Shown here: one piece after another, positions 5,636 to 26,025 of the stretch
Layout: every line of letters begins with the position of its first letter
Numbering within the stretch: position 1 is the stretch's first letter
Assembly (NCBI GenBank): GCA_016190175.1
Contig: JACPRC010000166.1
Coordinates: 1 to 33,389, forward strand
Direction: 5' to 3'
Source of the DNA: Planctomycetota bacterium
GTDB lineage: Bacteria; Planctomycetota; MHYJ01; JACPRB01
Length of the DNA: 33,389 nucleotides
Position numbers and translations under genes: made by a program
Notes under the pieces: generated by a model
What the model saw: only the letters and a program-made list of their open reading frames with translations
What the model was told of the DNA's origin: nothing
Database searches by the model: none

Positions 5636-8212
<2,577 letters not shown>

Positions 8213-8213
8213 A

Positions 8214-8954
8214 TCATTCTCCGAACAGCTCGCGCCACTCCTCCTCGAAGGCGCCTTCGCTCCCGGTCGTCTCCAGGATCTCGCGGCGGATCTCGGAGCG
8301 GATCTCCTCGCGCACCGCGTAGAGGTGGTTGCGCACGTCGCTCTCCTTGATCCCGAGCCTCGCGGCCACGCCCGCGTACGTCGGACTCTCGGCGGAGGAC
8401 ATCTCGTATTCCTCGTACGCGCGGAACTGCGCGTCGCGCCCGTCGGAGATGAGGCGCTCGCGGACGCGCGCGACCGCGCCTTGGACCAGCTCCGCCATCC
8501 ACGCCTGGTCGAACGCCTTCTCCGGGTCGGTCGCCTTCGGATCGGCGAGGACGTTTTCGAGCGGCGCCTCCTCGTCGCCGAGCCTGAGGATCGCGGCCCC
8601 TCCGCCGCGCTTCAGCCGCTGGAGCGCCTCCGCCTGGTGGGAGACGAAGCGGCCGAGGAGGAGCTTGAGATACTTGCGGAAGCTGCCGCGGTCGGGCTCG
8701 TACCGTTTGAGCGCGTCTCCCTGCAGGAGCCAGAGGAGGAACGCCTGCGTGATGTCCTTGGCGTCCTCGTTCGACTTCCCCCAGGTGAGGCGGACGTAGC
8801 GGTAGACGGGTTTCCAGTACCGCAGGGCGAGGGCGTCCAGGACGGGCCGCACGTCCGGGTTGTCGGGGTCGTGGATGCGCGAGACGAGGCCCCACGTCGT
8901 GTGGGGGAAGCCCGCCGCGCCGCCTCCGATGCTCGTATCTCCGCCGGGTCCCAT
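8214..8954 (-). CDS. ECF-type RNA polymerase sigma factor
   Basis: MGPGGDTSIGGGAAGFPHTTWGLVSRI...YRYVRLTWGKSNEDAKDITQAFLLWLLQ (sigma region 2) and YAGVAARLGIKESDVRNHLYAVREEIR (region 4); directly upstream of and nearly overlapping the kinase. Confidence 0.85.
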   Translation of the reverse strand: MGPGGDTSIGGGAAGFPHTTWGLVSRIHDPDNPDVRPVLDALALRYWKPVYRYVRLTWGKSNEDAKDITQAFLLWLLQGDALKRYEPDRGSFRKYLKLLLGRFVSHQAEALQRLKRGGGAAILRLGDEEAPLENVLADPKATDPEKAFDQAWMAELVQGAVARVRERLISDGRDAQFRAYEEYEMSSAESPTYAGVAARLGIKESDVRNHLYAVREEIRSEIRREILETTGSEGAFEEEWRELFGE

Positions 8955-9032
8955 GATCGGGGGCGCATTATAGCGATCCGGCCGGTCAAACGGAACGGCG
9001 CATTCGCGGAATCGTGATATCATGCTCTCCGC

Positions 9033-9906
9033 GATGACGTCGCGACGCACCTCCCTGCCCAGGCCGGGCGACCGCCTCGATCTCGGCGCGGGGCTCCGCG
9101 TCAGTCCCTTCTGCGTCGGCATGACCGGATCGCCGGAGACGGTCTGCGCGGCATACGACGCCGGGATCAACTTCTTTTTCCTGAGCGCCGATATGCACTG
9201 GCCGCTCTACGAGGGGATGCGGCGCGGTCTGGAGACGCTCCTCGGGCGCGGCGTGCGCGACCGCATCGCGGTCGGCGTCGTGTCGTACGCGACGCAGCCG
9301 GAGTTCTGCTGGATGCCGTTTCGCGAGGCGGTCGAAGCGGTGCCCGGACTGGAACGGATCGACGTCACGATCGCCGGCGGCGTCTATGGACCGGAGTTCG
9401 CGACCCGGGCGCAGGTCTACCGCGAACACCGGCGGCAGGCGTACCTCGGGGCCCGCGCGATCGGCGCGAGTTTCCACGACCGTCCCGCCGCGGCCGATGC
9501 GACGGCGCGAGGCCTCGTCGACATCTCCTTCGTGCGCTACAATCCGGCGCATCCCGGAGCGCGGGCCGACGTCTTCCCGCATCTGCCGGAACCGCGATCG
9601 ACGCTCCTCTACACGTTCAAGAGCACCGACGGGTACGTGCCGCCGTCCCGGTGCGCGCAGCTCGGCCTCGACGGCGCCTACTGGCGTCCCCGCGTGACGG
9701 ACCACTACCGCTTCGCGCTGACTTCGCCGCGGGTGGACGGCATCCTCTGCTCGCTCGACGGGCCGGCCGAGGTCGCGGAGTTCGCGGCGGCGATGGAGGC
9801 GGGGCCGCTCGACGAAGAGGAGGAGCGGTATCTCATCGAGCTGGCGATGCTGGACCGGGGGAAGGCGGGGCTCCGGCTTGACGGCGGGCCAGGACGCCCG
9901 CTCTGA
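9033..9906 (+). CDS. Aldo/keto reductase-like oxidoreductase
   Basis: LGAGLRVSPFCVGMTGSPETVCAAYDAGINFFFLSADMHW...; ATG at 9022 or 9033 possible (ORF track gives 9022 in the same frame family). Confidence 0.55.
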
Positions 9907-11173: not shown

Positions 11174-14100
11174 TCAAGAACCCATATGGGCGACGGCCGG
11201 ATTCCGGACCGCGCGCGCGCGGCCGATCCGCGCGAGGAAGTCGACCAGGACGAGCTCCTGCGCGCGCGCCGCCGACCGCAGCATCCGGTTCGAGTGCATG
11301 TGGAGGAGGCTCGCCGCCAGCTCCCGCATCGGAACCGCGAGCCGCCCCCGCGCCTCCAGGTCGCGCAACTCGGCGACGACCGGCGTTAGGCGCTCCGACC
11401 GCGCGCGCAGGTGGCGGATCGCGCGCGCCAGCGGATGCGTCCCCTGCTTCGACGGATCGAGGAGCGCCTCCACCGCCGTCTTCTCGTGACGGAACTTCTG
11501 GCCGATCTGCCCGTCGAGGATCCCCCTGCTCCGGAACTCCGCGCGGTACGAATCGCGGATCCGCTCCAGGGCGGCGAGCTTCTCGTCGGATGCGAGGCCG
11601 AGATCGTCCAGGAGCAGGTCCATCCCGAGGAGGGCCAGCCGCCACCGCGCGTCGAGTCCTTCGTCGCCCGGCAGGAGGCCCACGATCGCCGCCGCCGCCT
11701 CGCTGTCGATCCAGAAGAGGCGCTCCGCGGCCGCGACGCCGTCGGGGCCGCCGTATCGCTCGACCTCGCGCTCGTACGTGTCGAGCTGGACTCGGGAGAT
11801 CCGGCCGTCCGCGACGAGCGGCGCGGCGAGACGATGGAGCGCGGGGAGCACCTCGGCGAGCAGGCGCTCGGGCCGCCCGTGGAAGCGCACGCGCAGGTGC
11901 CACTCGGGGTCGCCGTAGCGGACGAAGAACCACCGGTCCGCCGCCCCCGACCGGATCGCGCTCTCGGCGAGCGGCCTCACCAGGTCGCGCAGGACGCCGT
12001 CCGCGGTGGCCGTGCCGCAGTACAGGTTCGCGTGGAGCCATTCGCTTCCCGGCGCGAAGGTGCGCTCCGCGGTCCTGCTCGACGGGGCCGCGAGCGTGCT
12101 CCTCACCGGCGCGCCCGCGCGGAGGAAGGGCACGACGATCTCGTGCACGAAGCGGCCCCCGGGCCCGCGCACGAAGACGTCCTCGGGGCCGGCCGCCATC
12201 TCCTCGAGGGCGACGGCCTCGCGGTCCTTCACAAGGTGGACGAACGTCTCCACGCTCAGGGGATTGTCGAGATCGACGGGGAGCGTCGCGTCGCCGTCCG
12301 CGACGGTGACGAACCGCGGCAGGTGGCGCTCGCGCCGGATCCGCGCGAGGTCGCGGACCTCATCGTTCAGGATCAGCCAGCGCGCGGGCGCGAGGATCGT
12401 GCGGCCGTACCGGACGCGCGGGAGGAACCGCGCGGCCGCGAACGGACCCCAGTCCCACGCGAGCGAGCCCGCCGTGCCCTGGTGCTGGAGCCGGCAGAGG
12501 AACTTGTAGACCCCGAGGCCCGTGGAGCGGTAGTTGTGCGCGTTCGTCATCCGCGGGAGCACCTCGCGGCCGAGCCGCTTCGACCGGAGGACTACGCGGC
12601 CCTCCCGCACGGATACCATGAGGTCCTGGATCGGGATCTGCCGGTCGGCGGGAACGGCGGACGCGCCGAGAAACGGGATCTCGTAGTCGCGCAGCACCGG
12701 GCGCGAGATGACGTTTCCGTGGCGGCCGGCGGGGGCGTGCACGACCTCGGCGAAGATGGCGTCCGGGCGGAGCCGCTCCTCCGCGCGCAGGAAGTCGCGG
12801 ACGCGGGCCAGCAGTCCGTCGTCGAGGTGGCAGAAGCGGCCGAGCATCTGCGCGCCGGAAGGACCGCCGGCGGACTTGAGGTGGAAGCGGAACTCGCCGC
12901 GGTCCACGGCCTCCTCCGACGCCGCCAGAATCGTGCCGAACGCCGAGATCGCGTCCGGGAGCGGCGGCGGCTCTTCCGTGCCCAGGTCCTCGTCCTCAAG
13001 GACGATCTCCGTGGCGCCGCGGCGCTGCGCCTCCTCGATCTTGCGCACGAGCATCGAGCGCCCGGCGTCCCACGCGACGGTGGAGTCGCCGTTGCGCGGG
13101 CCGAACGCGAGACCGGCCAGGAGCGGCGAGGCCTCGGCCGCGGGCGCGGACGACTTCTCGAACCCGACGCCGGCCTCCTCGTCGAGCGCCTCCGCGAGCG
13201 GCACGTCGCGGTCCTGATAGCGCTCGTGGAACCGCTTCGCGAACTCGTCCCACTCCCGGCGGCTCCGTGCGCCGAAAAGGCGGTGCAGCGCGCCGACGCC
13301 GCGCAGGATCTCGCGCGTCACGGCGGGCGCGAGGGTCGCTTCGGCGGCCCTGGAGAGGTCCACCTGGAAGAGCGACGCGTCCGTCTTGACGGAGAATTCC
13401 TCGAGCCGGCGGGCCGTCTCCCGATACCGGTCCGGGGGATTCGAGAGCCCCGCGGCGTCCAGCGCCGCGAGATCGGCGCGCACGCGTTCCAGCCGCTCCG
13501 CGGCGGCCGGGTCGCAGGGGCGGAGCCGCTCGACGAGCCCGTGGATCGGCTCCGGTCCGGTGACGGCGGGGTCGAGGTCGGAGACGAGGATCTGCGCGTC
13601 GACGAGGGCTTCGACGAACGCGCGCGCCTCCTCCGCGGCGATCTCCGGGGTCACGAGGGCCGCGGCGAGCCGCCCCAGCGTGGCGCCCCCGGCGGCGCGG
13701 TCGAGCGTCGCCTCGAGGTGGCCGCTCGCCTCGACTCCGACGAAGCGGAGGACGCGCTTGCCGATCCAGCGCGACTCGTGGTAGCGGAACCGGCCGGCCG
13801 CGCGGTAGAGGCTCGAGTTCGGCCGGAAGACCAGCGCCTCGCGCAGCGCGGGCGTGCGCTCCAGCGAATCCGTGAGCGCCGAGACGTAGCCCATGTCGAG
13901 GCGCGTGTGGCGGCGGACCGCGTCGCCGACGCGAAGCCGCGTCGCGGCGCCGATTTCGCCCAGGGAGCAGCCGGCGAAGAGACCGAACGGCGTCGAGCGG
14001 CCGGCCATCCGCTGGAAGTAGCGGACCAGGGAACGCTCGACCTTGCGCCCGCGTTCGCCCTCCGGCTTCTCCTTCCAGAAACCGAGGCTGGACTCGAGGG

Positions 14101-14254
14101 CGGGGGAGGCGACGAAGAGCGCCTCGCGGACGTCGGGCCGATCGAGGAACGCGGCGAGTTTCGCGCGGTCGCCGTTCCAGCCGACGAGTTCGTCGACGGG
14201 AAGGAGCGGCGTGCGGAGCGCGAAGAAGCCCGCGGGTGCGAAGTCGGGTGTCAT
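11174..14254 (-). CDS. lanB: Class I lanthipeptide dehydratase (LanB, full length with elimination domain)
   Basis: MTPDFAPAGFFALRTPLLPVDEL...SLVRYFQRMAGRSTPFGLFAGCSLGEIG (Lant_dehydr_N); C-term WLHANLYCGTATADGVLRDLVRPL...WFFVRYGDPEWHLRVRF (SpaB_C / thiopeptide-type); SD AAAGGA upstream. Confidence 0.9.
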   Translation of the reverse strand: MTPDFAPAGFFALRTPLLPVDELVGWNGDRAKLAAFLDRPDVREALFVASPALESSLGFWKEKPEGERGRKVERSLVRYFQRMAGRSTPFGLFAGCSLGEIGAATRLRVGDAVRRHTRLDMGYVSALTDSLERTPALREALVFRPNSSLYRAAGRFRYHESRWIGKRVLRFVGVEASGHLEATLDRAAGGATLGRLAAALVTPEIAAEEARAFVEALVDAQILVSDLDPAVTGPEPIHGLVERLRPCDPAAAERLERVRADLAALDAAGLSNPPDRYRETARRLEEFSVKTDASLFQVDLSRAAEATLAPAVTREILRGVGALHRLFGARSRREWDEFAKRFHERYQDRDVPLAEALDEEAGVGFEKSSAPAAEASPLLAGLAFGPRNGDSTVAWDAGRSMLVRKIEEAQRRGATEIVLEDEDLGTEEPPPLPDAISAFGTILAASEEAVDRGEFRFHLKSAGGPSGAQMLGRFCHLDDGLLARVRDFLRAEERLRPDAIFAEVVHAPAGRHGNVISRPVLRDYEIPFLGASAVPADRQIPIQDLMVSVREGRVVLRSKRLGREVLPRMTNAHNYRSTGLGVYKFLCRLQHQGTAGSLAWDWGPFAAARFLPRVRYGRTILAPARWLILNDEVRDLARIRRERHLPRFVTVADGDATLPVDLDNPLSVETFVHLVKDREAVALEEMAAGPEDVFVRGPGGRFVHEIVVPFLRAGAPVRSTLAAPSSRTAERTFAPGSEWLHANLYCGTATADGVLRDLVRPLAESAIRSGAADRWFFVRYGDPEWHLRVRFHGRPERLLAEVLPALHRLAAPLVADGRISRVQLDTYEREVERYGGPDGVAAAERLFWIDSEAAAAIVGLLPGDEGLDARWRLALLGMDLLLDDLGLASDEKLAALERIRDSYRAEFRSRGILDGQIGQKFRHEKTAVEALLDPSKQGTHPLARAIRHLRARSERLTPVVAELRDLEARGRLAVPMRELAASLLHMHSNRMLRSAARAQELVLVDFLARIGRARAVRNPAVAHMGS

Positions 14255-14265
14255 GGTCGTTCCTT

Positions 14266-15555
14266 TCACATGCCGGACAGGAGGAGGACGCGGTCCCAGG
14301 CCGGTTCCACATCCGTCGCCGCGGCCAGGAGCGCGAGCCCGATGCCGGAGACGCCGATCAGCAGGCCCGGCTCGTCGTGCCGGCCGTCGGGTCCCCAGGC
14401 CGAGAAGCCCGCGATTCCCGCGTCCGCGCGGCGGAAACGGAGCGTGCGGTCGAACCACTCGCGGGCCGCCCGGAGGAGGCGCTCGTCGCCCGACGCGTGG
14501 AACATCCGGTTCAGGACGTGGGCGATGCCCGCGGCTCCGTGGCACAGACTCGCGTCGCACACCTTGCCCTCGACCGGCGAGGCCGCGGCCGCGCGGAGGG
14601 CGATCTCGACGGCCTCGCGCTCCCGGCGGGTTTCGCCCATGCGACGCGACGCCTGCAGGAGCGCCGCCGCGATCCCCAGGTCCCCGTAGCACCACGCGAG
14701 TCGCGACGGCTCGGGCGCGACGCCGACGCCGACGATCGCCGGGAAGCAGGGCCCCGCAACCGGCAGCCGTCGAACGAGCAGCCACTCCACCGAGCGCACG
14801 AGCAGGCGCGCCGCCGCGCTCCGGCGGACGTCCGCCGCGACCGCCTCTCCGAGGAACGCGACGACGCCCGCGAGCCCGTGCGCGACGCCGAGATCGAAGT
14901 AGTCGCCGGGCGCCTTCGCGCGCTGCCACGAGCCGTCCCTGGGCGTGGTCCGCCACGCCGCGCCGTCCGCGCTCTCCTCCAGGGCGTCGACGCACCGCTC
15001 GAGGCACTCCCGCGCCTCGGGGAGCGGCAGCCGTTCGAGGGCGTGGACGCCCGCGCCGACGACGCCGTTGATGAGATCGAAGTCGGAGGGCAGCGCGAAG
15101 AGACCCGCTTCAGGGAGATCCTCCATGTCGCCGAGCCCGAGATGCGCCGCAACCCAGGCGATCCCGAGCCCTTCGCCGTACAGGGACGGCGGTCGTGGCG
15201 GCAGCGCCTGCGCGAGCGCGAGCAGTTCGTCGAGCCGGAGCCGCGCCTCCGCGGACTCCCCGCGGTAGTGCCGGAAGATCACTTCTCCGGCGCGCCCGCC
15301 GCCGAGCGAGAGGTCCTCGCACGGGAAGTCCGCGAGCGCGCGGGCGATCTCGTCGACTGCGCGCGCCGCGCGCTCGCCGAGTTCGCCTTCGAGGATGGGG
15401 GCCCACGGCGCGGCAGAGCCGCAACGACCGGGTGACCGGAGGAGAGCCGTGGACCGGGAGACCTGGGGACCGGGAGACCCTGTATCCGACGCGGATCCGC
15501 GCGCGTCGTCGAGGATCTTCTCGCTGCGGCAAGCGGTTGCTCGTGAGCGGCACAT
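14266..15555 (-). CDS. lanC: Lanthionine synthetase C-like cyclase (LanC)
   Basis: LAWCYGDLGIAAALL and SLCHGAAGIAHVL zinc-ligand motifs; repeated GxxHGxxG-type alpha-toroid motifs. Confidence 0.9.
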   Translation of the reverse strand: MCRSRATACRSEKILDDARGSASDTGSPGPQVSRSTALLRSPGRCGSAAPWAPILEGELGERAARAVDEIARALADFPCEDLSLGGGRAGEVIFRHYRGESAEARLRLDELLALAQALPPRPPSLYGEGLGIAWVAAHLGLGDMEDLPEAGLFALPSDFDLINGVVGAGVHALERLPLPEARECLERCVDALEESADGAAWRTTPRDGSWQRAKAPGDYFDLGVAHGLAGVVAFLGEAVAADVRRSAAARLLVRSVEWLLVRRLPVAGPCFPAIVGVGVAPEPSRLAWCYGDLGIAAALLQASRRMGETRREREAVEIALRAAAASPVEGKVCDASLCHGAAGIAHVLNRMFHASGDERLLRAAREWFDRTLRFRRADAGIAGFSAWGPDGRHDEPGLLIGVSGIGLALLAAATDVEPAWDRVLLLSGM

Positions 15556-15577: not shown

Positions 15578-15823
15578 TCAGCAGGCGTTCGTGCCGCAGC
15601 TCGTCGGCGTATTCGTGCAGTACACGCAGTTCGTGAAGCCGGCCGTCTGCGGGTTGCCTCCGCCGGTGTCGCCGCCGGTCGTGATGAAGATGATCGGGCC
15701 GGTCAGGGTGATCGCCGATATGAGGGGGAGGAAATATCCGCCGTCGACGCCGGCCATTTCCGCGCCGCTCAGGTCCCGGATCGTCTCGCGGTTCAGGGGC
15801 AACTTCTTGAGGGGGGTGTTCAT
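15578..15823 (-). CDS. Class I lanthipeptide precursor peptide 1
   Basis: MNTPLKKLPLNRETIRDLSGAEMAGVDGG leader with GG site; core ending NPQTAGFTNCVYCTNTPTSCGTNAC; adjacent to lanC. Confidence 0.88.
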   Translation of the reverse strand: MNTPLKKLPLNRETIRDLSGAEMAGVDGGYFLPLISAITLTGPIIFITTGGDTGGGNPQTAGFTNCVYCTNTPTSCGTNAC

Positions 15824-15896
15824 CGTCGCTCCTCCATGAAAAGGGGGCCGGGGCGGGATCCCCCGCGTGGCCGCGAGGGATCCCTCCGTTCATGCG

Positions 15897-16130
15897 TCAA
15901 CAGGTGGCCGTGCCGCAACTCGTCGGCGTGTTCGTACAGTACACGCAGTTCGTGAAGCCGGCCGTCTGGGGATTGCCGCCGCCGCCGCCACCGCCCGAGC
16001 AACCTTCGAGCAGGAGCAGTGCGGTCGTCGTGAGGGTCCACCATCCGCCGTCGACGCCGGCCATTTCCGCGCCGCCCAGCTCCCGGATCGTCTCCCGGTT
16101 CAGGGGCAGCTTCTTGAGGGGGGTGCCCAT
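15897..16130 (-). CDS. Class I lanthipeptide precursor peptide 2 (tandem duplicate)
   Basis: MGTPLKKLPLNRETIRELGGAEMAGVDGG leader; core ending NPQTAGFTNCVYCTNTPTSCGTATC; near-identical to precursor 1 at leader and C-terminal core. Confidence 0.87.
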   Translation of the reverse strand: MGTPLKKLPLNRETIRELGGAEMAGVDGGWWTLTTTALLLLEGCSGGGGGGGNPQTAGFTNCVYCTNTPTSCGTATC

Positions 16131-16283
16131 CGCCATTCCTCCGTAAAAGGGGTTCATGCGCCGCGAGTACCGCTTCGGCGCCGGGTCGTAGTTCCGCGCC
16201 CGGCCGGCCGTGTTTGAGGAAAAATCGGCGCGCGGCGATTCGCGTCAAACGCCCGGCCGGGAATACGGAATCAGACCGGCGCC

Positions 16284-18455
16284 ATGAGACTCGTCTGCGT
16301 CCGGCAGCAGGATCCGGCCGATTGCGGTGCCGCGGTGCTCGCGACCGTCGCCCGCCACTACGGCAGGCCGATCTCCGTGCAGCAGCTTCGGACCCTGACG
16401 GGGACGGACAGCCGCGGAACGAACCTCCTGGGACTCGTCGAAGCCGCGAGGAAACTGGGATTCGAGGCGCGCGGGGTCCAGGCGGAGATCGAGGCGCTCG
16501 CCGAGATCCCGCTCCCGGCGATCGCCCACCTCCGCGGACCGCAGGGGAACCACTTCGTCGTCGTCCATCGCGCGGATCGCAAACGCGTCACGGTCGCCGA
16601 TCCGGGCGCGGGGATCGAGAAGTGGGATATCGCGGACTTCCGGCGCCTCTGGAGCGGCCATCTCGTGCTGCTCGTCCCGGGCGAGGACCGGCGCGAATTC
16701 GCGGGGCCGAGGGGCCCGATGCGGCGCCTCTTCGATCTCCTGTGGGTCCACAAGGGGACGCTCCTCGAGGCCGTCGGGTGCGCGATCCTCATGACGCTGC
16801 TCGGTCTCGCGGGCTCGCTCTACGTCCAGCAGCTCCTCGACTCGATCCTCGTGCACCAGGGGCGGACGCTCCTCGACGTCGTGGGCGCGGGCATGATCGT
16901 CGTCCTCCTCTTCCGCGTCGTCTTCGGGTCGTTCCGCCACTATCTGGTGGCCCACATGGGCCGCCGGATCGACCTGGGCCTCCAGCGGCGCTTCTACGGC
17001 CACGTCCTGCGCCTCCCGATCTCCTTCTTCGAGTCGCGGCGCGTGGGGGACATCCTCTCGCGGATGAACGAGACGGCGCGGGTCCGCGAGGTCGTCGGCG
17101 GCACCACGGTCTCGCTCGCGCTCGACGGCGTCCTCGTCCTGGGAGGCGCGGCGCTGATGGTCGCGTACTCGCCCGCGCTCGCGCTCGCGGCGCTGGCGAC
17201 GCTCCCGCTCTTCGCCCTCTCCACGTTCGCGCACCTCCCGTGGATGAAGCGGACGCAGCGGCGGATGATGGAGGAGGCGGCGGACCTGCACGCGCGCCTC
17301 GTCGAGGACGTGACCGGCGTCGAGACGATCCGCGCGTGCGGCGCGGAGGAGCACCGCATCGTCCGGACCGAGGCCGCCATGGTCCGCTTCACCAGACAGG
17401 TCTTCCGGAACCAGATGGTCTCGCTCAGCCTGAACGGGCTCGGCCTCTTCGCGGGCGGACTCGCGTCGCTCGCCGTCCTCTGGGTCGGCGGCCATCGCGT
17501 GCTCTCGGGAGAACTGACCGTCGGACAGCTCATGCTCTTCTCGAGTCTCATCGGGATGATGACGGGGCCGGTGGAACGGCTCGCGGGCGTGGTCATGAAC
17601 CTCCAGGACGCGGCGATCGCCCTGGACCGGATGGGCGAGATCCTCGACCTCCCGGCGGAATCCGCGGGGGGCGGGGCGGCGTTCCGCGGGCTCCGCGAGG
17701 GGGTCCGCCTGCGGAACGTCTCCTTCCGCTACGGGTGCCGGGACTTCGTGCTGCGGGACCTCGACCTCGACGTCCCGGCGGGGAAAACGGTCGCCATCGT
17801 GGGGGAGAGCGGCTGCGGGAAGTCGACGCTCTGCAAGCTCCTCGCGGGCTTCCACGCGCCGACGGAGGGGAGCATCCTCGTCGACGGCATGGACGCGCGG
17901 GACTACGACGCCGGGTCCCTGCGGCGGAAGACCGGCTGGGTCCAGCAGGAGCCCTTCGTCTTCAGCGGGACGATCCGCGAGAACATCGCGCTCGGGAGGC
18001 CCGACGCGCCGTTCGAGGAGATCGTCGAGGCGGCTCGCATCGCGCAGCTCGCCGGGTTCGTGGACGGGCTGCCGGAGCGGTACGAGACGAAGATCGGCGA
18101 GCGCGGGACGAACCTCTCGGGCGGGCAGCGGCAGCGGATCGCGATCGCGCGCGCGGTGCTGCGCCGGCCCGACCTCTTCATCTTCGACGAGGCGACGAGC
18201 CACCTCGACACGCGGACCGAGACGGCGCTGCAGGAGGCGCTGCGCGGCGTGCTCGAAGGGCGGACCGCGGTGCTGTTCGCCCACCGCCTCTCCACCGTGC
18301 GGATGGCCGACGTGATCGCCGTCATGGAGCACGGGACGATCGTGGAGCGCGGGACACACGAGGAACTGCTCGCGCTCGGCGGCCGGTACGCGGAGCTCTG
18401 GGCACGCCAGCAGGGCGCGGAGCCGTGGATCCTCATCGACAAGGAGGCCGCATGA
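16284..18455 (+). CDS. lanT: C39 peptidase-containing ABC transporter (LanT-like, leader-cleaving exporter)
   Basis: N-term MRLVCVRQQDPADCGAAVLATVARHYG (C39 Cys), ...GNHFVVVHRADRKRVTVADPG (C39 His/Asp); Walker A GESGCGKST; signature LSGGQRQRIAIARAVLRRPDLFIFDE. Confidence 0.93.
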   Translation: MRLVCVRQQDPADCGAAVLATVARHYGRPISVQQLRTLTGTDSRGTNLLGLVEAARKLGFEARGVQAEIEALAEIPLPAIAHLRGPQGNHFVVVHRADRKRVTVADPGAGIEKWDIADFRRLWSGHLVLLVPGEDRREFAGPRGPMRRLFDLLWVHKGTLLEAVGCAILMTLLGLAGSLYVQQLLDSILVHQGRTLLDVVGAGMIVVLLFRVVFGSFRHYLVAHMGRRIDLGLQRRFYGHVLRLPISFFESRRVGDILSRMNETARVREVVGGTTVSLALDGVLVLGGAALMVAYSPALALAALATLPLFALSTFAHLPWMKRTQRRMMEEAADLHARLVEDVTGVETIRACGAEEHRIVRTEAAMVRFTRQVFRNQMVSLSLNGLGLFAGGLASLAVLWVGGHRVLSGELTVGQLMLFSSLIGMMTGPVERLAGVVMNLQDAAIALDRMGEILDLPAESAGGGAAFRGLREGVRLRNVSFRYGCRDFVLRDLDLDVPAGKTVAIVGESGCGKSTLCKLLAGFHAPTEGSILVDGMDARDYDAGSLRRKTGWVQQEPFVFSGTIRENIALGRPDAPFEEIVEAARIAQLAGFVDGLPERYETKIGERGTNLSGGQRQRIAIARAVLRRPDLFIFDEATSHLDTRTETALQEALRGVLEGRTAVLFAHRLSTVRMADVIAVMEHGTIVERGTHEELLALGGRYAELWARQQGAEPWILIDKEAA

Positions 18456-19633
18456 GCGCCGAGGTCCTGGAGCTGAAGGACTGCGACGAGGCGGTGGAGA
18501 TCCTGCGCGTCCGTCCGTCGCGCGCAATCCGCGTCGCGCTGCTGTGCGTCCTGCTTCTCCTCGGGTGCGGCGCCGGCTGGGCCCGTGTCGCGAAGGTGGA
18601 CATCGTGGTCCGCGCGGCGGGGCGCGTCCGCCCCTCCGCAGGCCCGCTCGCGGAGGTGTGCTCGGAGGTCGGGGGACGCATCGCGGAGGCGCGGTGCGCC
18701 GAGGGCGACCGCGTCGAGCGGGGCGGTCTCCTGGCCAGGCTCGACTCGGCGAAGCTCGACGACGAGATCGAGGCGCAGGGACGCGCGATCCGGAGCGACG
18801 AGGAGGAGTGCGTCCGGCTCGACGCGCTCCTCGGGACGATCCGCGGACAGGAGGCGGCGGCGCTGGCGAGGATCGACTGCGAGGTCGAGGCGGCGGAGGC
18901 GGAGGAGAGGCTGGCGGAACTCGACGTCGCCGATGCGCGGAGGCGGGGCGATCTCCTGCGCGAACTGGTGAAGGAGGGGCTTGAGGCGGAGCAGAAACTG
19001 CGGGAGGCGGAGGGGGAACTGGCGCGGGCGAAGGTGCGGTTCGCGGCGGCGCGCGCGCGGACGGAGGCGGCGCGCGGCCAGAGGGAGATTGCGCGGAAGG
19101 ACGGCGCCGCCCGCCGCGAGGAGGCCGCGCTGCGCCTGGCGTCGAAGCGCGCCTCGGCCGAGCGGGCCCGCGAGGCGCTCCGGAACCTCGGGCGCGACCG
19201 CGAGCGGTGCGAGATCCGGGCCCCGATCTCGGGGATCGTCGTCTCGGGCCGCCCGCAGGTCGGCGACTTCGTGCATGCGGGGCGGCCGATCCTGGCGGTG
19301 GCGCCCGAGGCGGGGCTGCGCATCGAGGCCGTGGTGCCCGCGTCGGAAGTCGGGCTCCTGGGCGAAGGGATGGCGGCGCGCGCCCGGTTCGACGCGTTCG
19401 ACTACCGCGAGTACGGCTCGCTGGGCGGCCGCGTCGAGTGGATCTCCCCGGACTCGGAGACGAACGACCGCGGCGAAACGGTCTACCGCGTGCGCGTGCG
19501 CGTGGACGCGGAGGACCTCGGCGGGCGGGCCCGCCTCCGGATGGGGCTGACCGCGCAGGTGGAGATCGTCACGCGGCGGGAGTCCGTCTCGACGCTCCTC
19601 TTCAGGAAGGTGCGGGGCGAGGTGTCGTTTTGA
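18452..19633 (+). CDS. HlyD-family membrane fusion/adaptor protein
   Basis: Starts ATGA-overlapping lanT; N-terminal TM, coiled-coil, IRAPISGIVVSGRPQVGDFVHAGRPILAVAPE lipoyl-type segment. Confidence 0.85.
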   Translation: MSAEVLELKDCDEAVEILRVRPSRAIRVALLCVLLLLGCGAGWARVAKVDIVVRAAGRVRPSAGPLAEVCSEVGGRIAEARCAEGDRVERGGLLARLDSAKLDDEIEAQGRAIRSDEEECVRLDALLGTIRGQEAAALARIDCEVEAAEAEERLAELDVADARRRGDLLRELVKEGLEAEQKLREAEGELARAKVRFAAARARTEAARGQREIARKDGAARREEAALRLASKRASAERAREALRNLGRDRERCEIRAPISGIVVSGRPQVGDFVHAGRPILAVAPEAGLRIEAVVPASEVGLLGEGMAARARFDAFDYREYGSLGGRVEWISPDSETNDRGETVYRVRVRVDAEDLGGRARLRMGLTAQVEIVTRRESVSTLLFRKVRGEVSF

Positions 19634-19918: not shown

Positions 19919-20139
19919 GGCGGGCCAGCCCGCCTTGTTCACGTCGGCTTCGCCGCCGACGTGAAGCGGCGCCCTACGGGCAGCTACGCCCGCTTCCGGC
20001 GGGCTCCGCTGGACAGCCCCTCCGGCTCCGCCCGACACCCTGTCGGGCTCCGCCCTCGGCCCGCGACGCGACTGTTGCCCCATGCGGTACGCGCCGCGGG
20101 CGGATTATTCATGAAGGCTCTCGCCTTCATGAACAATCC
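19919..20139. repeat. Hairpin-rich intergenic block (possible structured ncRNA or non-autonomous repeat element)
   Basis: TTCACGTCGGC-ttcgcc-GCCGACGTGAA (19938-19965), CCCGAC-accct-GTCGGG, CCCGC-ttcc-GGCGGG, and GGATTATTCATGAAGGC-tctc-GCCTTCATGAACAATCC (20102-20139). Confidence 0.6.
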
Positions 20140-20157: not shown

Positions 20158-21342
20158 TTGGATCTCATCCTGCTCCTGGCCCTCGGTTCGCTCCTCATCC
20201 TGGTGATGTTCGGCTGGATGCTGCGCAAGCACGCGCCGGCCGTAGCACTGGTGCCGGAGGGGCTCCGCATGGGCCCCGACACGATCGTCGCGTGGGACGG
20301 AGTCGTCGCTCTGGACTACCGGCGCCGCCAGAGCCGCGCGAGGTTCGCGGTCCATTCCGGTCAGGGAAGGCTCGACTTCACGAACGAGCAGGCGGGCGAG
20401 CCGGACCCCGAGCGGCTCAAGAACGCGATCGTCGCCGCGGCCGGGCTGTCGGCGGCCGCCGAGAAGCGCCTGCCCGGCGAGATCGTGGAGCGATGGCACC
20501 GGGAAGTCGAGGTGGTGGAGCCGGAAGAGCCCCGACGGGGAGGACGCGGCGTCAAGGCGGCGCTGGGCGCGGCGGGCATTCTGGGACTTCTCCTTCTCAA
20601 GCTCAAGAAGATCGCGTTCCTCGTCCTGGTCGGCCTCCAATGGGGCGTGAAGGCGCTCAAGCTCGCGAAGTTCGGTCCGACCGTGATCTCGATGTTCGTC
20701 ACGATCGGCGTCTACGCGCTCCTGTGGGGCTGGCTCTTCGCCGTGGGGTTCGTGGTGCTCATCTACCTGCACGAGATGGGGCACTGGGCCGTGATCCGGG
20801 CGAAGGGCCTCAAGGCGGGGGTCCCGATCTTCATCCCGTTCGTGGGGGCGCTCATCGCGCTGCGCGGCCAGATGGCGGACGCGACGGTCGAGGCCGAGAT
20901 GGCGTACGGAGGTCCCGCGGCGGGGGCGCTCGCGTCGACGGGCTGTTTCGCGCTCTGGCTCGCGACGGGCTCGTCCCTCTGGCTGGCCCTCGCCTACGTC
21001 GGCTTCTTCATGAACCTCTTCAACCTCGTGCCGATCGCGCCGCTCGACGGCGGGCGCATCGTCACGGCGATCTCGACGAAGCTGTGGATCGCCGGCATCG
21101 TCGCCGCGGGGCTCCTCTTCTTCTATACCTTCAACGTGATCCTGCTGCTCATCGTCTTCCTGGGGATCGGCCGGGCGTGGTCGCTCATGCGCGGCAAGGA
21201 GCGGCAGGCGCCGGGCTACTACGCGATGGCGCCGTCGTACCGGCTCTTCATGGGGACGGCGTACTTCGGGCTCGCGGGGTATCTCGGGTTCCTCGCGTAC
21301 CACGCGCACGAGATCCTGAAGGCGCTGCAGGGGCGCGCGTAG
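20158..21342 (+). CDS. Site-2 protease (M50) family intramembrane metalloprotease
   Basis: LHEMGH and LFNLVPIAPLDGGRI motifs within multiple TM segments; TTG start with TAGACT 8 nt upstream. Confidence 0.85.
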   Translation: MDLILLLALGSLLILVMFGWMLRKHAPAVALVPEGLRMGPDTIVAWDGVVALDYRRRQSRARFAVHSGQGRLDFTNEQAGEPDPERLKNAIVAAAGLSAAAEKRLPGEIVERWHREVEVVEPEEPRRGGRGVKAALGAAGILGLLLLKLKKIAFLVLVGLQWGVKALKLAKFGPTVISMFVTIGVYALLWGWLFAVGFVVLIYLHEMGHWAVIRAKGLKAGVPIFIPFVGALIALRGQMADATVEAEMAYGGPAAGALASTGCFALWLATGSSLWLALAYVGFFMNLFNLVPIAPLDGGRIVTAISTKLWIAGIVAAGLLFFYTFNVILLLIVFLGIGRAWSLMRGKERQAPGYYAMAPSYRLFMGTAYFGLAGYLGFLAYHAHEILKALQGRA

Positions 21343-21348
21343 CGGTCG

Positions 21349-22425
21349 CTACGAGAGCGCCACCCGCGTCCGCTCCCCGGTCGTCCCCGCGATCTCGCGC
21401 TGGAACCGGCCGGGGATCGCCGTGCCGCACTTCGGGCAGCGGCCGTCGCGCAGGAGCGCCTTCGCGACCGCGAAGCCGCGGCGACGGATCACGCACTCCC
21501 CGCAGCCGTGGCAGTACGTGTCCTCGCCCGGATGTCCCGGGACGTTTCCCATGTAGACGTACTTGAGTCCCTCCTCCATCCCGATCTCCCGGAAGCGCTC
21601 GAGGGTGCGGATCGGAGTCGAAGACAGGTGCGAGAGATCGAGGTACGGATGGAACCGCGTGACGTGCCACGGCGTGAACTCGCCGAGCTCGCTCCGGATC
21701 CACCGCGCGATCCCGTGCGCGATCTCCTCGGCGTCGTTGATCGTCGGCGTCACGTTCGTCACGCATTCGACGTGCATGCCGTACTTGTGGAGCGCGAGTT
21801 TCGTCATCTCGAGGACGGGCTCCCAGCGCGCGAGGCCGGAGATCTTCTTGTACGACTCCTTCGAGAACCCCTTGATGTCGACGCGCCACGCGGAGAGGTA
21901 CGGGCCGATGAGCTCCATGTGCTCCGGCGTCGCGTATCCGTTCGTCATGTACGCGCTGTAGACGCCGAGCTTCTTCGCCTCGATCATCGCTTCGAGCGTG
22001 TGCTCGATCCAGATCGTCGGATCGTTGTAGGTCCAGCCGATCCCTTCGCAGCCGAGCCGTCGCGCGAGATGCGCGCTCTCCTTCGGGTCGAGCTTCTCGA
22101 GGTTCTCGCCGAACTTGTCGGGCTCGTCGTGCGAGATCTCCCAGTTCTGGCATCCGGGGCAGTGGAAGTTGCAGCCGCGCGTGCCCATCGAGAGGATGCG
22201 CGTGCCGGGGTAGAAGTGGTAGAGGGGTTTCTTCTCGATCGGATCGACGCACGCGGACGACGTGAGGCCGTAGAGGAGCGTGGTGAGGGTCCCGCCCTCG
22301 TTCAGGCGCGTGCGGCACGCCCCGCGGTCCCCGGGGGCGATGACGCACCGCACGGCGCAGACGTTTCAGCGGACCTTGCCGTCGCGCAGCTTCTCGTAGA
22401 GGAGGCTCTCTTTCACGGGGGCCAT
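21349..22425 (-). CDS. amrS: AmmeMemoRadiSam-type radical SAM enzyme with predicted selenocysteine at codon 20
   Basis: MAPVKESLLYEKLRDGKVR*NVCAVRCVIAPGDRGACRTRLNEGGTLTTLLYG...GTRGCNFHCPGCQNWEIS; the TGA at 22366-22368 is the only interruption of a continuous frame. Alternative GTG start at 22416. Confidence 0.87.
22345..22358 (-). promoter_or_regulatory. Candidate bacterial SECIS stem-loop in the radical SAM gene
   Basis: Minus strand GCGCC-GTGC-GGTGC (one G-U pair), loop starting with G, 16 nt from first base of TGA. Confidence 0.5.
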
Positions 22426-22429
22426 TATA
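22424..22429 (-). promoter_or_regulatory. -10 element TATAAT, possibly leaderless for the GTG at 22416
   Basis: Minus strand TATAAT-ggccccc-GTG. Confidence 0.4.
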
Positions 22430-22476
22430 CCCGATTTCGCGTGAGATGCGGCGCGACGGGACGTACACTGGCGGCC

Positions 22477-24654
22477 ATGTCCGGAGAGGGAATCACCCGC
22501 CGCGGCTTCCTCAAGGCGGCGGGCGCGGCGGGGGGCGCCATCGCCGGCCGCGACCTCGTCGGCGGCGCGCAGGCCCCCGCCGGCGCGCCGGTCCTCGGAC
22601 CCGACAAGGTCGCCTTCACGATCAAGGTGAACGGCAAGCCGTGCGACCTCAACGTCGAGCCCCGCACGACCCTCCTCAACGCGCTCCGCAATCACCTGGA
22701 CGTCACGGGGCCGAAGGAGGGATGCGGCCACGGCGCGTGCGGCGCGTGCACCGTCTGGCTGGACGGGAAGCCCGTCCTCGCCTGTCTCATGCTCGCGATC
22801 GACGCCGCGGGCCGCGAGGTCACGACGGTCGAGGGACTCTCCCAAAAGGGGCCCGACCCGCTCCAGGCGAAACTCGTCGAGCACGAGGGGCTGCAGTGCG
22901 GGTTCTGCGTCCCGGGCTTCGTCATGTCGATCAAGGCGTGCCTGCGGGACAACCCGAAAGCGACGCCCGACGAAGTGAAGCGCTCCTGTGCGGGCCATGT
23001 CTGCCGTTGCGCCGCGTATCCCGGCATGTTCGAGGCCGCGGCGGCGGTCGTGAAAGGCGAGGCGCCCGAGCCGGACGTGACGAAGCTCTCGGGCTCCGAG
23101 CTCAGGAGATACGTCGAGGAGAAGGGCCTGCCGCGCCTCGACGGCGCCGACAAGGTGACGGGCCGCGCGAAGTACGCCGCCGACGTGAAGCTCCCCGGGA
23201 TGCTGCACGCCCGTGTCTTCGCCTCGCCGTTCGCGAACGCGACCGTCGAGGGTGAACCGGACGTCGCGGCTGCGCGCAAGGTGCCGGGCGTGCGGCACGT
23301 CGAGGTCTTGACCCGGTCACCGAAGATCGGCGAACCCGTCGCGATCGCCGTCGCCGAGGACCCGCAGGCGGCGGACGAGGCGCTCGCGGCGCTCGGGCTG
23401 AAGCTGCGGCCGGGCGAGGTCCAGACCGATCCGCACGAGGCCTTCCGCCGGGGAGCCGTGAAGGAGGACCAGAAGTCCGAGTCGATTCGGAAGGCGATCG
23501 AGTCGGCGGCCGCGTCCGCCTCGAACACGTATTCAGTAAATATGGTTCAGCATTCGGCGCTGGAGCCGCACGGCTGCGCCGCGCAATGGAAAGACGACTC
23601 GCTCACCGTCTACGAGTCCACGCAGCACGTGTGGGGCGTCCACCGGGCGATCTCGGCGGCCACGAAGCTCGGGCAGAACAAGGTCCGCGTCCTGTGCGAG
23701 CACATGGGCGGGGGCTTCGGCGCCAAGATCGGCCCGTGGAACTTCACGCCCCGCGTCGTCGGCCTGGCGAAGGAGCTGGGCGCGCCGGTGAAGTGCATGA
23801 ACACCCGCGCCGGCGAGCTCCTCGGCGGCGGCGGGCGTATCCCCCAGGTCGTCGAGGTTCGCGTCGGCGCGGAGAAGGACGGCACCCTCGTCGGCGAATG
23901 GCGGAAGTCGTTCCCGCTCCGGATGGGACCCTACTGGTACAAGATGCCGTCGGCATGCGACCAGGTGCAGGGGAGGACCGACGGCGCCGGATGGGCCCCC
24001 GCGCTCCGCGCCCCCGGCGCGCCCCCCGCCCAGTTCGTGGCCGAGTCGATCATGGACGACCTGGCCGCGAAGCTCGGCATGGACCCGCTGGAGCTGCGGA
24101 TCAAGAACCGGCCGGAGCTCAAGCGCTGGTTCGACGAGGGAGCGAAACGGATCGGCTGGGAGCGCCGCCGGACGAAGCCATCCGGCGATCCGGTCGTCCG
24201 CGGGATCGGCGTCGGATGCGGGGAGTTCGCGGGCGCGAGCGGGTGCGACTTCATCGAAGTCGAGGTGGACCGCCGCACCGGACTCGTGCGCGTCGTCAAG
24301 GTCGTCGTCGTGTTCGAGGGCGGGTTCCTGAACCGGCGCGCCGTGCTGAACCAGGTCCGGGGCGGCACGATCATGGCGCTCTCGTGGGCGCTTCTCGAGG
24401 AGCGGGTCCTCGATCCGCGCACGGGCGCGATGATGAACCCGAACTTCGAGTTCTACAAGATCGCGGGACCGCTCGACGTGCCGGAGATCGAGGTCGTGCT
24501 CCTGGGGCGCGCCGGGAAATCGGGCGGCGTCGGCGAGGCGCCGGTCGTGCCGGTCGCGGGGGCGCTTTCGAATGCGATCTTCAACGCGCTGGGCGTGCGC
24601 GCGGCCCGGATGCCGTTCACGCCGCGGAACGTGCTCGAGGCGATCGGAGGATAG
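22477..24654 (+). CDS. Molybdenum hydroxylase: Tat signal + [2Fe-2S] small subunit fused to (incomplete) Mo-binding subunit
   Basis: MSGEGITRRGFLKAAGAAGG (Tat); GCGHGACGACTVWLDG and CGFCVPGF...CRCAAYPG (two 2Fe-2S sites); MGGGFGAKIG and C-terminal GVGEAPVVPVAGALSNAIFNA. Confidence 0.88.
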   Translation: MSGEGITRRGFLKAAGAAGGAIAGRDLVGGAQAPAGAPVLGPDKVAFTIKVNGKPCDLNVEPRTTLLNALRNHLDVTGPKEGCGHGACGACTVWLDGKPVLACLMLAIDAAGREVTTVEGLSQKGPDPLQAKLVEHEGLQCGFCVPGFVMSIKACLRDNPKATPDEVKRSCAGHVCRCAAYPGMFEAAAAVVKGEAPEPDVTKLSGSELRRYVEEKGLPRLDGADKVTGRAKYAADVKLPGMLHARVFASPFANATVEGEPDVAAARKVPGVRHVEVLTRSPKIGEPVAIAVAEDPQAADEALAALGLKLRPGEVQTDPHEAFRRGAVKEDQKSESIRKAIESAAASASNTYSVNMVQHSALEPHGCAAQWKDDSLTVYESTQHVWGVHRAISAATKLGQNKVRVLCEHMGGGFGAKIGPWNFTPRVVGLAKELGAPVKCMNTRAGELLGGGGRIPQVVEVRVGAEKDGTLVGEWRKSFPLRMGPYWYKMPSACDQVQGRTDGAGWAPALRAPGAPPAQFVAESIMDDLAAKLGMDPLELRIKNRPELKRWFDEGAKRIGWERRRTKPSGDPVVRGIGVGCGEFAGASGCDFIEVEVDRRTGLVRVVKVVVVFEGGFLNRRAVLNQVRGGTIMALSWALLEERVLDPRTGAMMNPNFEFYKIAGPLDVPEIEVVLLGRAGKSGGVGEAPVVPVAGALSNAIFNALGVRAARMPFTPRNVLEAIGG

Positions 24655-24655
24655 C

Positions 24656-25144
24656 ATGGCGCAGATCCGCATCCATCGGGACGGGACGGTCGAGGCGCTC
24701 TGCGGGACGCAGGACATCGGGGGCGGCGCGCGCACGGCGGTCCTGATCCTGGCCTCGCGCGCGTTCGAATGGCTGCCCCTGTCGAAGATCGTCGTCCGCA
24801 TCGGCGACAGCGACTTCGGCGCGTCGGGTGCGAGCGCGGGGAGTTCCACGACGGGCGGCGTGACGCAGGAATTCCGCAAGGCCTCCGAGGCGGTGAAGGC
24901 GAAGTTCTTCGGGGAGATCGCGCCGAGGCTCAAGGCCGGCGCCGGCGATCTCGAGATCCGCGAGGGCGGCCGCGTCGGCGTCAAGGGACAGGAGAGGTCG
25001 ATCGCGTGGGACGAGGCGTGCTCGCTCCTGCGCGACACGGTGCTCGGTCACGCGCCGACGATCGTGGAGCCCGAAGCGCAGTGGGCGTTCGTGCACGAGG
25101 ACGGGACGGTCGAGCAGGCGACGGAGGAGACTCACCCCGCATGA
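24656..25144 (+). CDS. Excised segment of the Mo-binding subunit encoded as a separate gene
   Basis: MAQIRIHRDGTVEALCGTQDIGGGARTAVLILAS...GDSDFGASGASAGSSTTGGVTQEFRKA matches the middle/late part of xanthine dehydrogenase-family Mo subunits; starts 1 nt after upstream stop (TAGCATG). Confidence 0.8.
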   Translation: MAQIRIHRDGTVEALCGTQDIGGGARTAVLILASRAFEWLPLSKIVVRIGDSDFGASGASAGSSTTGGVTQEFRKASEAVKAKFFGEIAPRLKAGAGDLEIREGGRVGVKGQERSIAWDEACSLLRDTVLGHAPTIVEPEAQWAFVHEDGTVEQATEETHPA

Positions 25145-26025
25145 TGCGCTTCGAGTACGTCACGCCGAAGACAGTCGAGGAGGCGCTGAAGCACCTGCCG
25201 GAGGGGCGCCCCAAGGCGGGCGGGACCGAACTCCTCCCGATGATCCAGGATCGGCTCATCGCGCCGAAGCGTCTCGTGAATCTCCTCGGTCTCGACTTGC
25301 GGGCGATCGAAACCGGCGCGACGCTGAAGGTGGGCGCGCTGGCGACGCTCGCCGAGGTCGCCGCCCATCCGAAGATCCGCGACGGGTACGCGGCGCTCGC
25401 GCAGGCGGCGGGGGAGGCCGCGACGCCGCAGGTCCGCAACATGGGCACGGTCGGGGGCAACCTCTGCCAGCGCCCGCGCTGCTGGTATTTCCGGAGCGAC
25501 CAGTTCCGGTGCCTGCGCAAAGGCGCGACGACCTGCCCGGCGATGGAAGGCGACAACCGATATCACGCGATCCTCGGCAACACCGCGTGCGCGGCGGTGC
25601 ATCCTTCGAATCTGGCCCCGGCGCTTATCGTGCTCGGCGGCACCGTGCACGTCGTCGGACCGAAAGGCGCGCGCGCCGTCCCGGCCGCGCGCTTCTTCGA
25701 CGTCGGGGACGACGTGACGCGCGAGACGACGCTGGAGCCCGGCGAGATCGTGACGGGGATCGAGGCCCCGCCCGGCGCGAAGAGCGTCTACCTCGAACTG
25801 CGCGAGCGGCAGTCGTTCGACTGGCCGCTCGTGTCGGTGGCGGCGGCGAAGAGGGACGGCACGATCCACATGGCCCTGGGCGGCGTGGCGCCGCGGCCGG
25901 TGGCCGTGGCGGACATGGGGCCCGACGAGGTCCTCAAGACGGCGCGTCCTCTCAAGCACAACGCCTACAAGGTCAAGCTCGCGCGCGTGCTCATGGAGCG
26001 GGCGATCGAGTCGCTGGGAAGATGA
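25141..26025 (+). CDS. FAD-binding subunit of molybdenum hydroxylase (PaoB/YagS-like with extra Cys loop)
   Basis: ATGA overlap with upstream gene; RNMGTVGGNLCQRPRCWYFR...FRCLRKGATTCPAMEGDNRYHAILG. Confidence 0.88.
   Translation: MMRFEYVTPKTVEEALKHLPEGRPKAGGTELLPMIQDRLIAPKRLVNLLGLDLRAIETGATLKVGALATLAEVAAHPKIRDGYAALAQAAGEAATPQVRNMGTVGGNLCQRPRCWYFRSDQFRCLRKGATTCPAMEGDNRYHAILGNTACAAVHPSNLAPALIVLGGTVHVVGPKGARAVPAARFFDVGDDVTRETTLEPGEIVTGIEAPPGAKSVYLELRERQSFDWPLVSVAAAKRDGTIHMALGGVAPRPVAVADMGPDEVLKTARPLKHNAYKVKLARVLMERAIESLGR

Follow-up and report, generated by a model that had tools for sequence, protein, structure and literature searches.

Class I lanthipeptides with Gly-Gly leaders and a tandem precursor pair

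Prochlorosins, which are class II lanthipeptides with Nif11 leaders, combine a conserved leader with a divergent core, and it is the entire core that varies. Roseocin and the other two-peptide lantibiotics are also class II systems. Roseocin is described as having precursors with a conserved leader and a diverse core (PMC10027976). Class I precursors with an LxLxKx5L motif and a Gly-Gly leader have been described mainly from Bacteroidetes, often beside a C39 protease (Walker 2020, PMC7268733). Since 62% of class I precursors are the sole precursor of their cluster (PMC7268733), clusters with several precursors are not rare. Pinensins are class I peptides of Bacteroidetes whose LanB consists of two separate proteins (PMC7268733), and the leader of the class I peptide PedA15 from Pedobacter lusitanus is reported to have been removed with the GG-protease LahT150 (Bothwell 2021, via PMC12328550).

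The window, by which we mean the whole stretch of 33,389 nucleotides analysed here, contains two tandem precursor genes, A and B, for which a lanthipeptide identity had been proposed in the initial annotation. Both ORFs are present at that place, and because LanB, LanC, LanT, and HlyD genes adjoin them (Table 1), the lanthipeptide reading is firm. The gene A product is MNTPLKKLPLNRETIRDLSGAEMAGVDGG-YFLPLISAITLTGPIIFITT-GGDT-GGGNPQTAGFTNCVYCTNTPTSCGTNAC and the gene B product is MGTPLKKLPLNRETIRELGGAEMAGVDGG-WWTLTTTALLLLEGCS-GGGG-GGGNPQTAGFTNCVYCTNTPTSCGTATC. Both cores are rich in Ser, Thr, and Cys (13 Ser/Thr in each, with 4 Cys in A and 5 in B), and a Pfam search of the two precursors returned no domain match. 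In both genes a GGAGG(A) ribosome-binding site lies immediately upstream of the chosen ATG. An alternative start of gene B at 16157, used in the listed ORF, would give a longer product but is less likely, since the ribosome-binding site favours 16130.

Table 1. Positions of the precursor genes, their parts, and the adjoining biosynthetic genes in the window.
Feature	Positions	Strand	Remarks
LanB dehydratase, full-length	11174..14254	-	PF04738 (E=3e-168) and PF14028 (E=8e-65)
LanC cyclase	14266..15555	-	PF05147 (E=1.2e-27); start uncertain, homology from about residue 50
Precursor gene A	15578..15823	-	81 aa ORF
Gene A Gly-rich linker and constant C-terminal core	15578..15676	-	4 Cys; stop included
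Gene A variable block YFLPLISAITLTGPIIFITT	15677..15736	-	Without Cys; mean hydropathy 1.64
Gene A leader MNTPLKKLPLNRETIRDLSGAEMAGVDGG	15737..15823	-	Gly-Gly cleavage site at its end
Precursor gene B	15897..16130	-	77 aa; ATG downstream of GGAGGA ribosome-binding site
Gene B Gly-rich linker and constant C-terminal core	15897..15995	-	4 Cys; stop included
Gene B variable block WWTLTTTALLLLEGCS	15996..16043	-	One extra Cys; mean hydropathy 0.88
Gene B leader MGTPLKKLPLNRETIRELGGAEMAGVDGG	16044..16130	-	
LanT, C39 peptidase and ABC exporter (PCAT type)	16284..18455	+	PF03412, PF00664, PF00005
HlyD-type periplasmic adaptor	18452..19633	+	PF13437 (E=1e-19), TIGR01843; overlaps LanT end

Both leaders (LPLNRETIRDL in A, LPLNRETIREL in B) match LxLxKx5L at every position but one, where R conservatively replaces K, and both carry a GVDGG cleavage site. 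The leader model NF038153 (lant_leader_L1a) matches leader A with E=0.001 and 19.2 bits and leader B with E=0.005 and 16.9 bits, under the 22-bit cut-off in each case, so the family assignment rests on the motif, the class I enzymes, and the gene context. The locus is like the described LxLxKx5L/Gly-Gly class I systems (PMC7268733) in its leader motif apart from the R for K, and in its GG site, C39 exporter, and LanB and LanC. It differs from them in its host, which belongs to another lineage and has a genome of 70% GC, in having a core unlike any seen, and in scoring just under the NF038153 cut-off. It can be likened to pinensins by pathway rather than by core sequence, both being class I pathways of Gram-negative bacteria, although LanB is here one fused protein. 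PedA15 offers a likeness by description rather than by sequence, as a class I peptide with a leader cut by a GG-protease.

The fused LanB carries both glutamylation and elimination domains and has 5ehk and NisB as solved relatives. LanC is a stand-alone protein that aligns with the solved 8byk_A and retains the zinc-ligand motifs WCYG and CHG. LanT is transcribed divergently from the precursor genes; its C39 domain is recognised by PF03412 at E=4.5e-36, and among solved structures the protein is closest to 4ry2, an ABC-type bacteriocin transporter, with which the Cys of DCGAA is aligned. By analogy with these known families, LanB, LanC, LanT, and HlyD would make up a complete pathway to modify, cut, and export Gly-Gly peptides from a Gram-negative cell. 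The draft of the host genome is fragmented into 231 contigs and reaches 64% completeness. About 500 bases after HlyD there is an M50 site-2 protease-like gene (20158-21342, forward strand), directly preceded by a near-perfect inverted repeat, TTCATGAAGGC..GCCTTCATGAA, at 20103-20138; an M50 relative was looked for in the related clusters and none was found there.

Constant flanks around an unrelated block

A and B agree at 81 of 87 nt in the leader and at 74 of 84 nt in the C-terminal core, where only 2 of 28 residues differ. A repeat search recovers the same arrangement as direct repeats of 110 nt (89%) on the leader side and 99 nt (86%) on the C-terminal side. The near-identity of leader and C-terminal core had been noticed before and is borne out down to the DNA level, as are the four Cys of each constant core and the additional Cys in the B segment.

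The block that follows the Gly-Gly site is hydrophobic and Thr-rich, with 20 residues in A and 16 in B. Neither DNA global alignment nor protein alignment of the two blocks is significant (9% and 41% of shuffles, respectively, reach the score), and when they are aligned in frame without gaps, at most 35% of positions (17/48) are identical. An origin of the block by inversion or frame shift was considered and rejected, as reverse-complement and local alignments are no better than shuffles. The block has a sharp left edge, exactly where the GG codons end. Its right edge is soft because GGDTGGG in A and GGGGGGG in B are probably one Gly-rich linker. When this linker is added, the DNA score beats most shuffles (p about 0.01 versus codon shuffles), which suggests that the linker is common to the two genes and that the truly unrelated block measures 60 versus 48 nt. 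The claim of an unrelated intervening segment thus holds for its lack of significant similarity, but not for its extent, which had been put at 72 versus 60 nt. Third-position GC in the block (0.90 and 0.81) is as high as elsewhere and so gives no hint of foreign DNA.

Synonymous divergence between A and B is 0.09 in the leader, 0.46 in the C-terminus, and 0.25 over the flanks overall. Neutral drift at the flank dS predicts a block identity of about 79% (at dS 0.25) or 66% (at dS 0.46), and the binomial probability of the observed 17/48 is about 1e-10 against the former and 2e-5 against the latter. With 35% identity where 66-79% is predicted, the block has been replaced or has changed much faster than neutral; on sequence comparison, the single gene pair would fit either course. 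The head has 7 codons changed synonymously and 2 non-synonymously, and since its dN of 0.05 is far below its dS of 0.46 (Fisher p = 0.001), purifying selection acts on it. The leader has a dN of 0.06 and a dS of 0.09. The dS values of leader and head differ only at p = 0.06, a non-significant inequality that is suggestive of a mosaic or of gene conversion. A recent duplication followed by a swap or rapid divergence, as proposed initially, is therefore right in its bounded block and its faster-than-neutral change, but with dS of 0.09 and 0.46 the duplication is not very recent.

Relatives of the cluster and of the precursors

LanC relatives at E <= 1e-20 are found in 4 of 392 genomes sampled from the phylum, the host genome included. 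In two genomes of the same phylum, G291 and G1141, the genes are arranged alike, HlyD-LanT being divergent from precursor-LanC-LanB, with identities to the window of 52% for LanT, 44-47% for LanB, 37-39% for LanC, and about 61% for the leader. Each has one recognisable precursor. These two are orthologous, the only such pair found, and their nucleotide identity is 84% in the leader, 77% in the first part of the core, and 71% in the remainder. A sharply variable block had been expected among homologous precursors, and this pair goes against that expectation in diverging evenly along the core.

Tandem precursors occur in two other genomes, G204 and G729. The pair in G204 has the leader alone in common. 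The class I Gly-Gly leader model finds 19 strong matches in G729, a 2.6-Mb genome belonging to the same class as the Dyadobacter record; they lie in several tandem arrays, on contigs C72, C20, C8, and C91 (L025, L028, L031-L050). Even where G729 leaders agree at up to 90%, the cores are less than half identical and largely unrelated, with no constant C-terminus. Among the closest-leader pairs listed, only the pair in the window keeps 90% identity over the last 20 residues. Two of the G729 loci, L048:1902 and L048:3313, encode identical peptides.

A core of the TNCVYCTNTPTSC type was not detected in the 392 genomes of the phylum sample (only one leader-level match), in 284 genomes of the phylum of the Myxococcales MAG (one leader-level match), or in 398 genomes of the G291 class (three leader-level matches). 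The class sample of 23 genomes held no relative of it, plasmids and IMG/VR gave no match, and a search of gene A against the genome contig collection likewise found no relative. Because no third relative with a TNCVYCTNTPTSC core turned up in these collections, the history of the block has to be read from a single gene pair. Matches at the order level (L004-L006) were weak and partial and were not taken as precursors, and LanB loci from Dyadobacter, Alphaproteobacteria, and Myxococcales (L010-L012) have no recognisable GG-leader precursor near LanB. The suggestion of a diversification module acting as a recurrent mechanism finds no backing here, given the lack of a core homologue in the collections searched and the leader-only likeness of the tandem precursors in G204 and G729.

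Candidate products of the pair and competing explanations

A and B are probably paralogous class I lanthipeptides that have one ring-bearing head and different hydrophobic tails. As substrates of a single pathway with Gly-Gly leaders, they would be docked through the leader by LanB, which would dehydrate Ser and Thr of the core, and LanC would then close (methyl)lanthionine rings on Cys. Cleavage after GVDGG by the C39 domain of LanT and export through LanT and HlyD would be expected to release a mature peptide whose N-terminal tail is hydrophobic and rich in Thr (possibly in Dhb) and is joined through a Gly-rich hinge to the constant C-terminal head. This head could bear up to four thioether rings, and the tail of B may hold a fifth. 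Once the gene had been duplicated, purifying selection would have preserved the head, and the tail would have been exchanged or have changed rapidly; the two variants would probably act on a common target, with differences in how they insert into membranes or in their spectrum. Such peptides would extend Gly-Gly class I lanthipeptides to a cluster type rare in this phylum and offer a natural pair for testing the effect of a tail against a constant head.

That A and B act jointly, in the way of the alpha and beta peptides known from two-peptide lantibiotics, is possible but rather unlikely. The precursors are adjacent and served by a single enzyme set, their hydrophobic N-termini differ, and the extra Cys in B could alter the ring pattern. 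The ring regions are however not distinct, since the cores differ at so few residues and only the tail Cys of B is extra, and the relatives with the same layout, G291 and G1141, each have a single precursor. The near-identical ring heads are also a mild argument against joint action, as roseocin-type systems, alike in having two precursors with a conserved leader, have diverse cores (PMC10027976).

In prochlorosins variation extends over the whole core, whereas here it is confined to the N-terminal part. A and B might represent a modular family with a constant C-terminal ring head and exchangeable hydrophobic N-terminal tails, though we regard its existence as doubtful. In nisin, the target-binding rings are N-terminal, and the layout of such a family would be the reverse. 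If it were real, several membrane-active variants would depend on a single set of enzymes and perhaps on a single immunity function, and an exchangeable tail would make the pathway of use in peptide engineering.

A recurrent module in which recombination exchanges tails between precursors and leaves head and leader unchanged is quite improbable. The sharp left edge directly after the GG codons, the unequal block lengths, and the mosaic-like dS would all agree with it, but the arrangement is known from one pair only, the G291/G1141 orthologues diverge evenly, the tandem precursors of G204 and G729 have leaders alone in common, and the genome itself holds no donor copy beyond a 22-nt match (95%) to the gene A block. 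This match (L055, G000:C113:885-906) lies within a gene predicted to encode a membrane protein and keeps the reading frame (PIIFI.T), and we took it as chance because the block query gave many short matches. The A/B pair is a single case within a known peptide family and not yet a new diversification system.

Decay of one copy, with its tail as debris, is very unlikely: the B tail is shorter and leads into seven Gly, but the frame, ribosome-binding site, GG site, and all head Cys are intact in both copies, and the head changes are mostly synonymous. Repeats of diversity-generating retroelements keep their length and vary at template adenines, and the reverse transcriptases of these elements carry [IVL]GxxxSQ. 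That such an element, or another targeted-mutation system, wrote the block has almost no probability, for although the block is bounded and reverse transcriptases are present in the genome, its two copies are unequal in length and not alignable, and the two full reverse transcriptases read carry QGxxxSP and sit on other contigs. These two (L062 and L063, on G000 contigs C149 and C8) have YADD with the QGxxxSP motif, appear retron-like by eye, and both contain a HGF.TGRS..TNAAPHV stretch; a third match in the genome is weak and without a readable reverse transcriptase frame.

Other genes in the window include, on the reverse strand, a GmrSD-type (type IV restriction) endonuclease with both Pfam domains (861-2738) and a protein kinase fused to an FGE-sulfatase (formylglycine-generating-enzyme-like) domain (5636-8212), which adjoins a gene for a sigma-70-like protein (8214-9170). 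On the forward strand, a molybdenum hydroxylase that is a large MoCo/2Fe-2S fusion (21508-24654) is followed by a molybdenum hydroxylase FAD subunit resembling 4-hydroxybenzoyl-CoA reductase beta (24769-26025).
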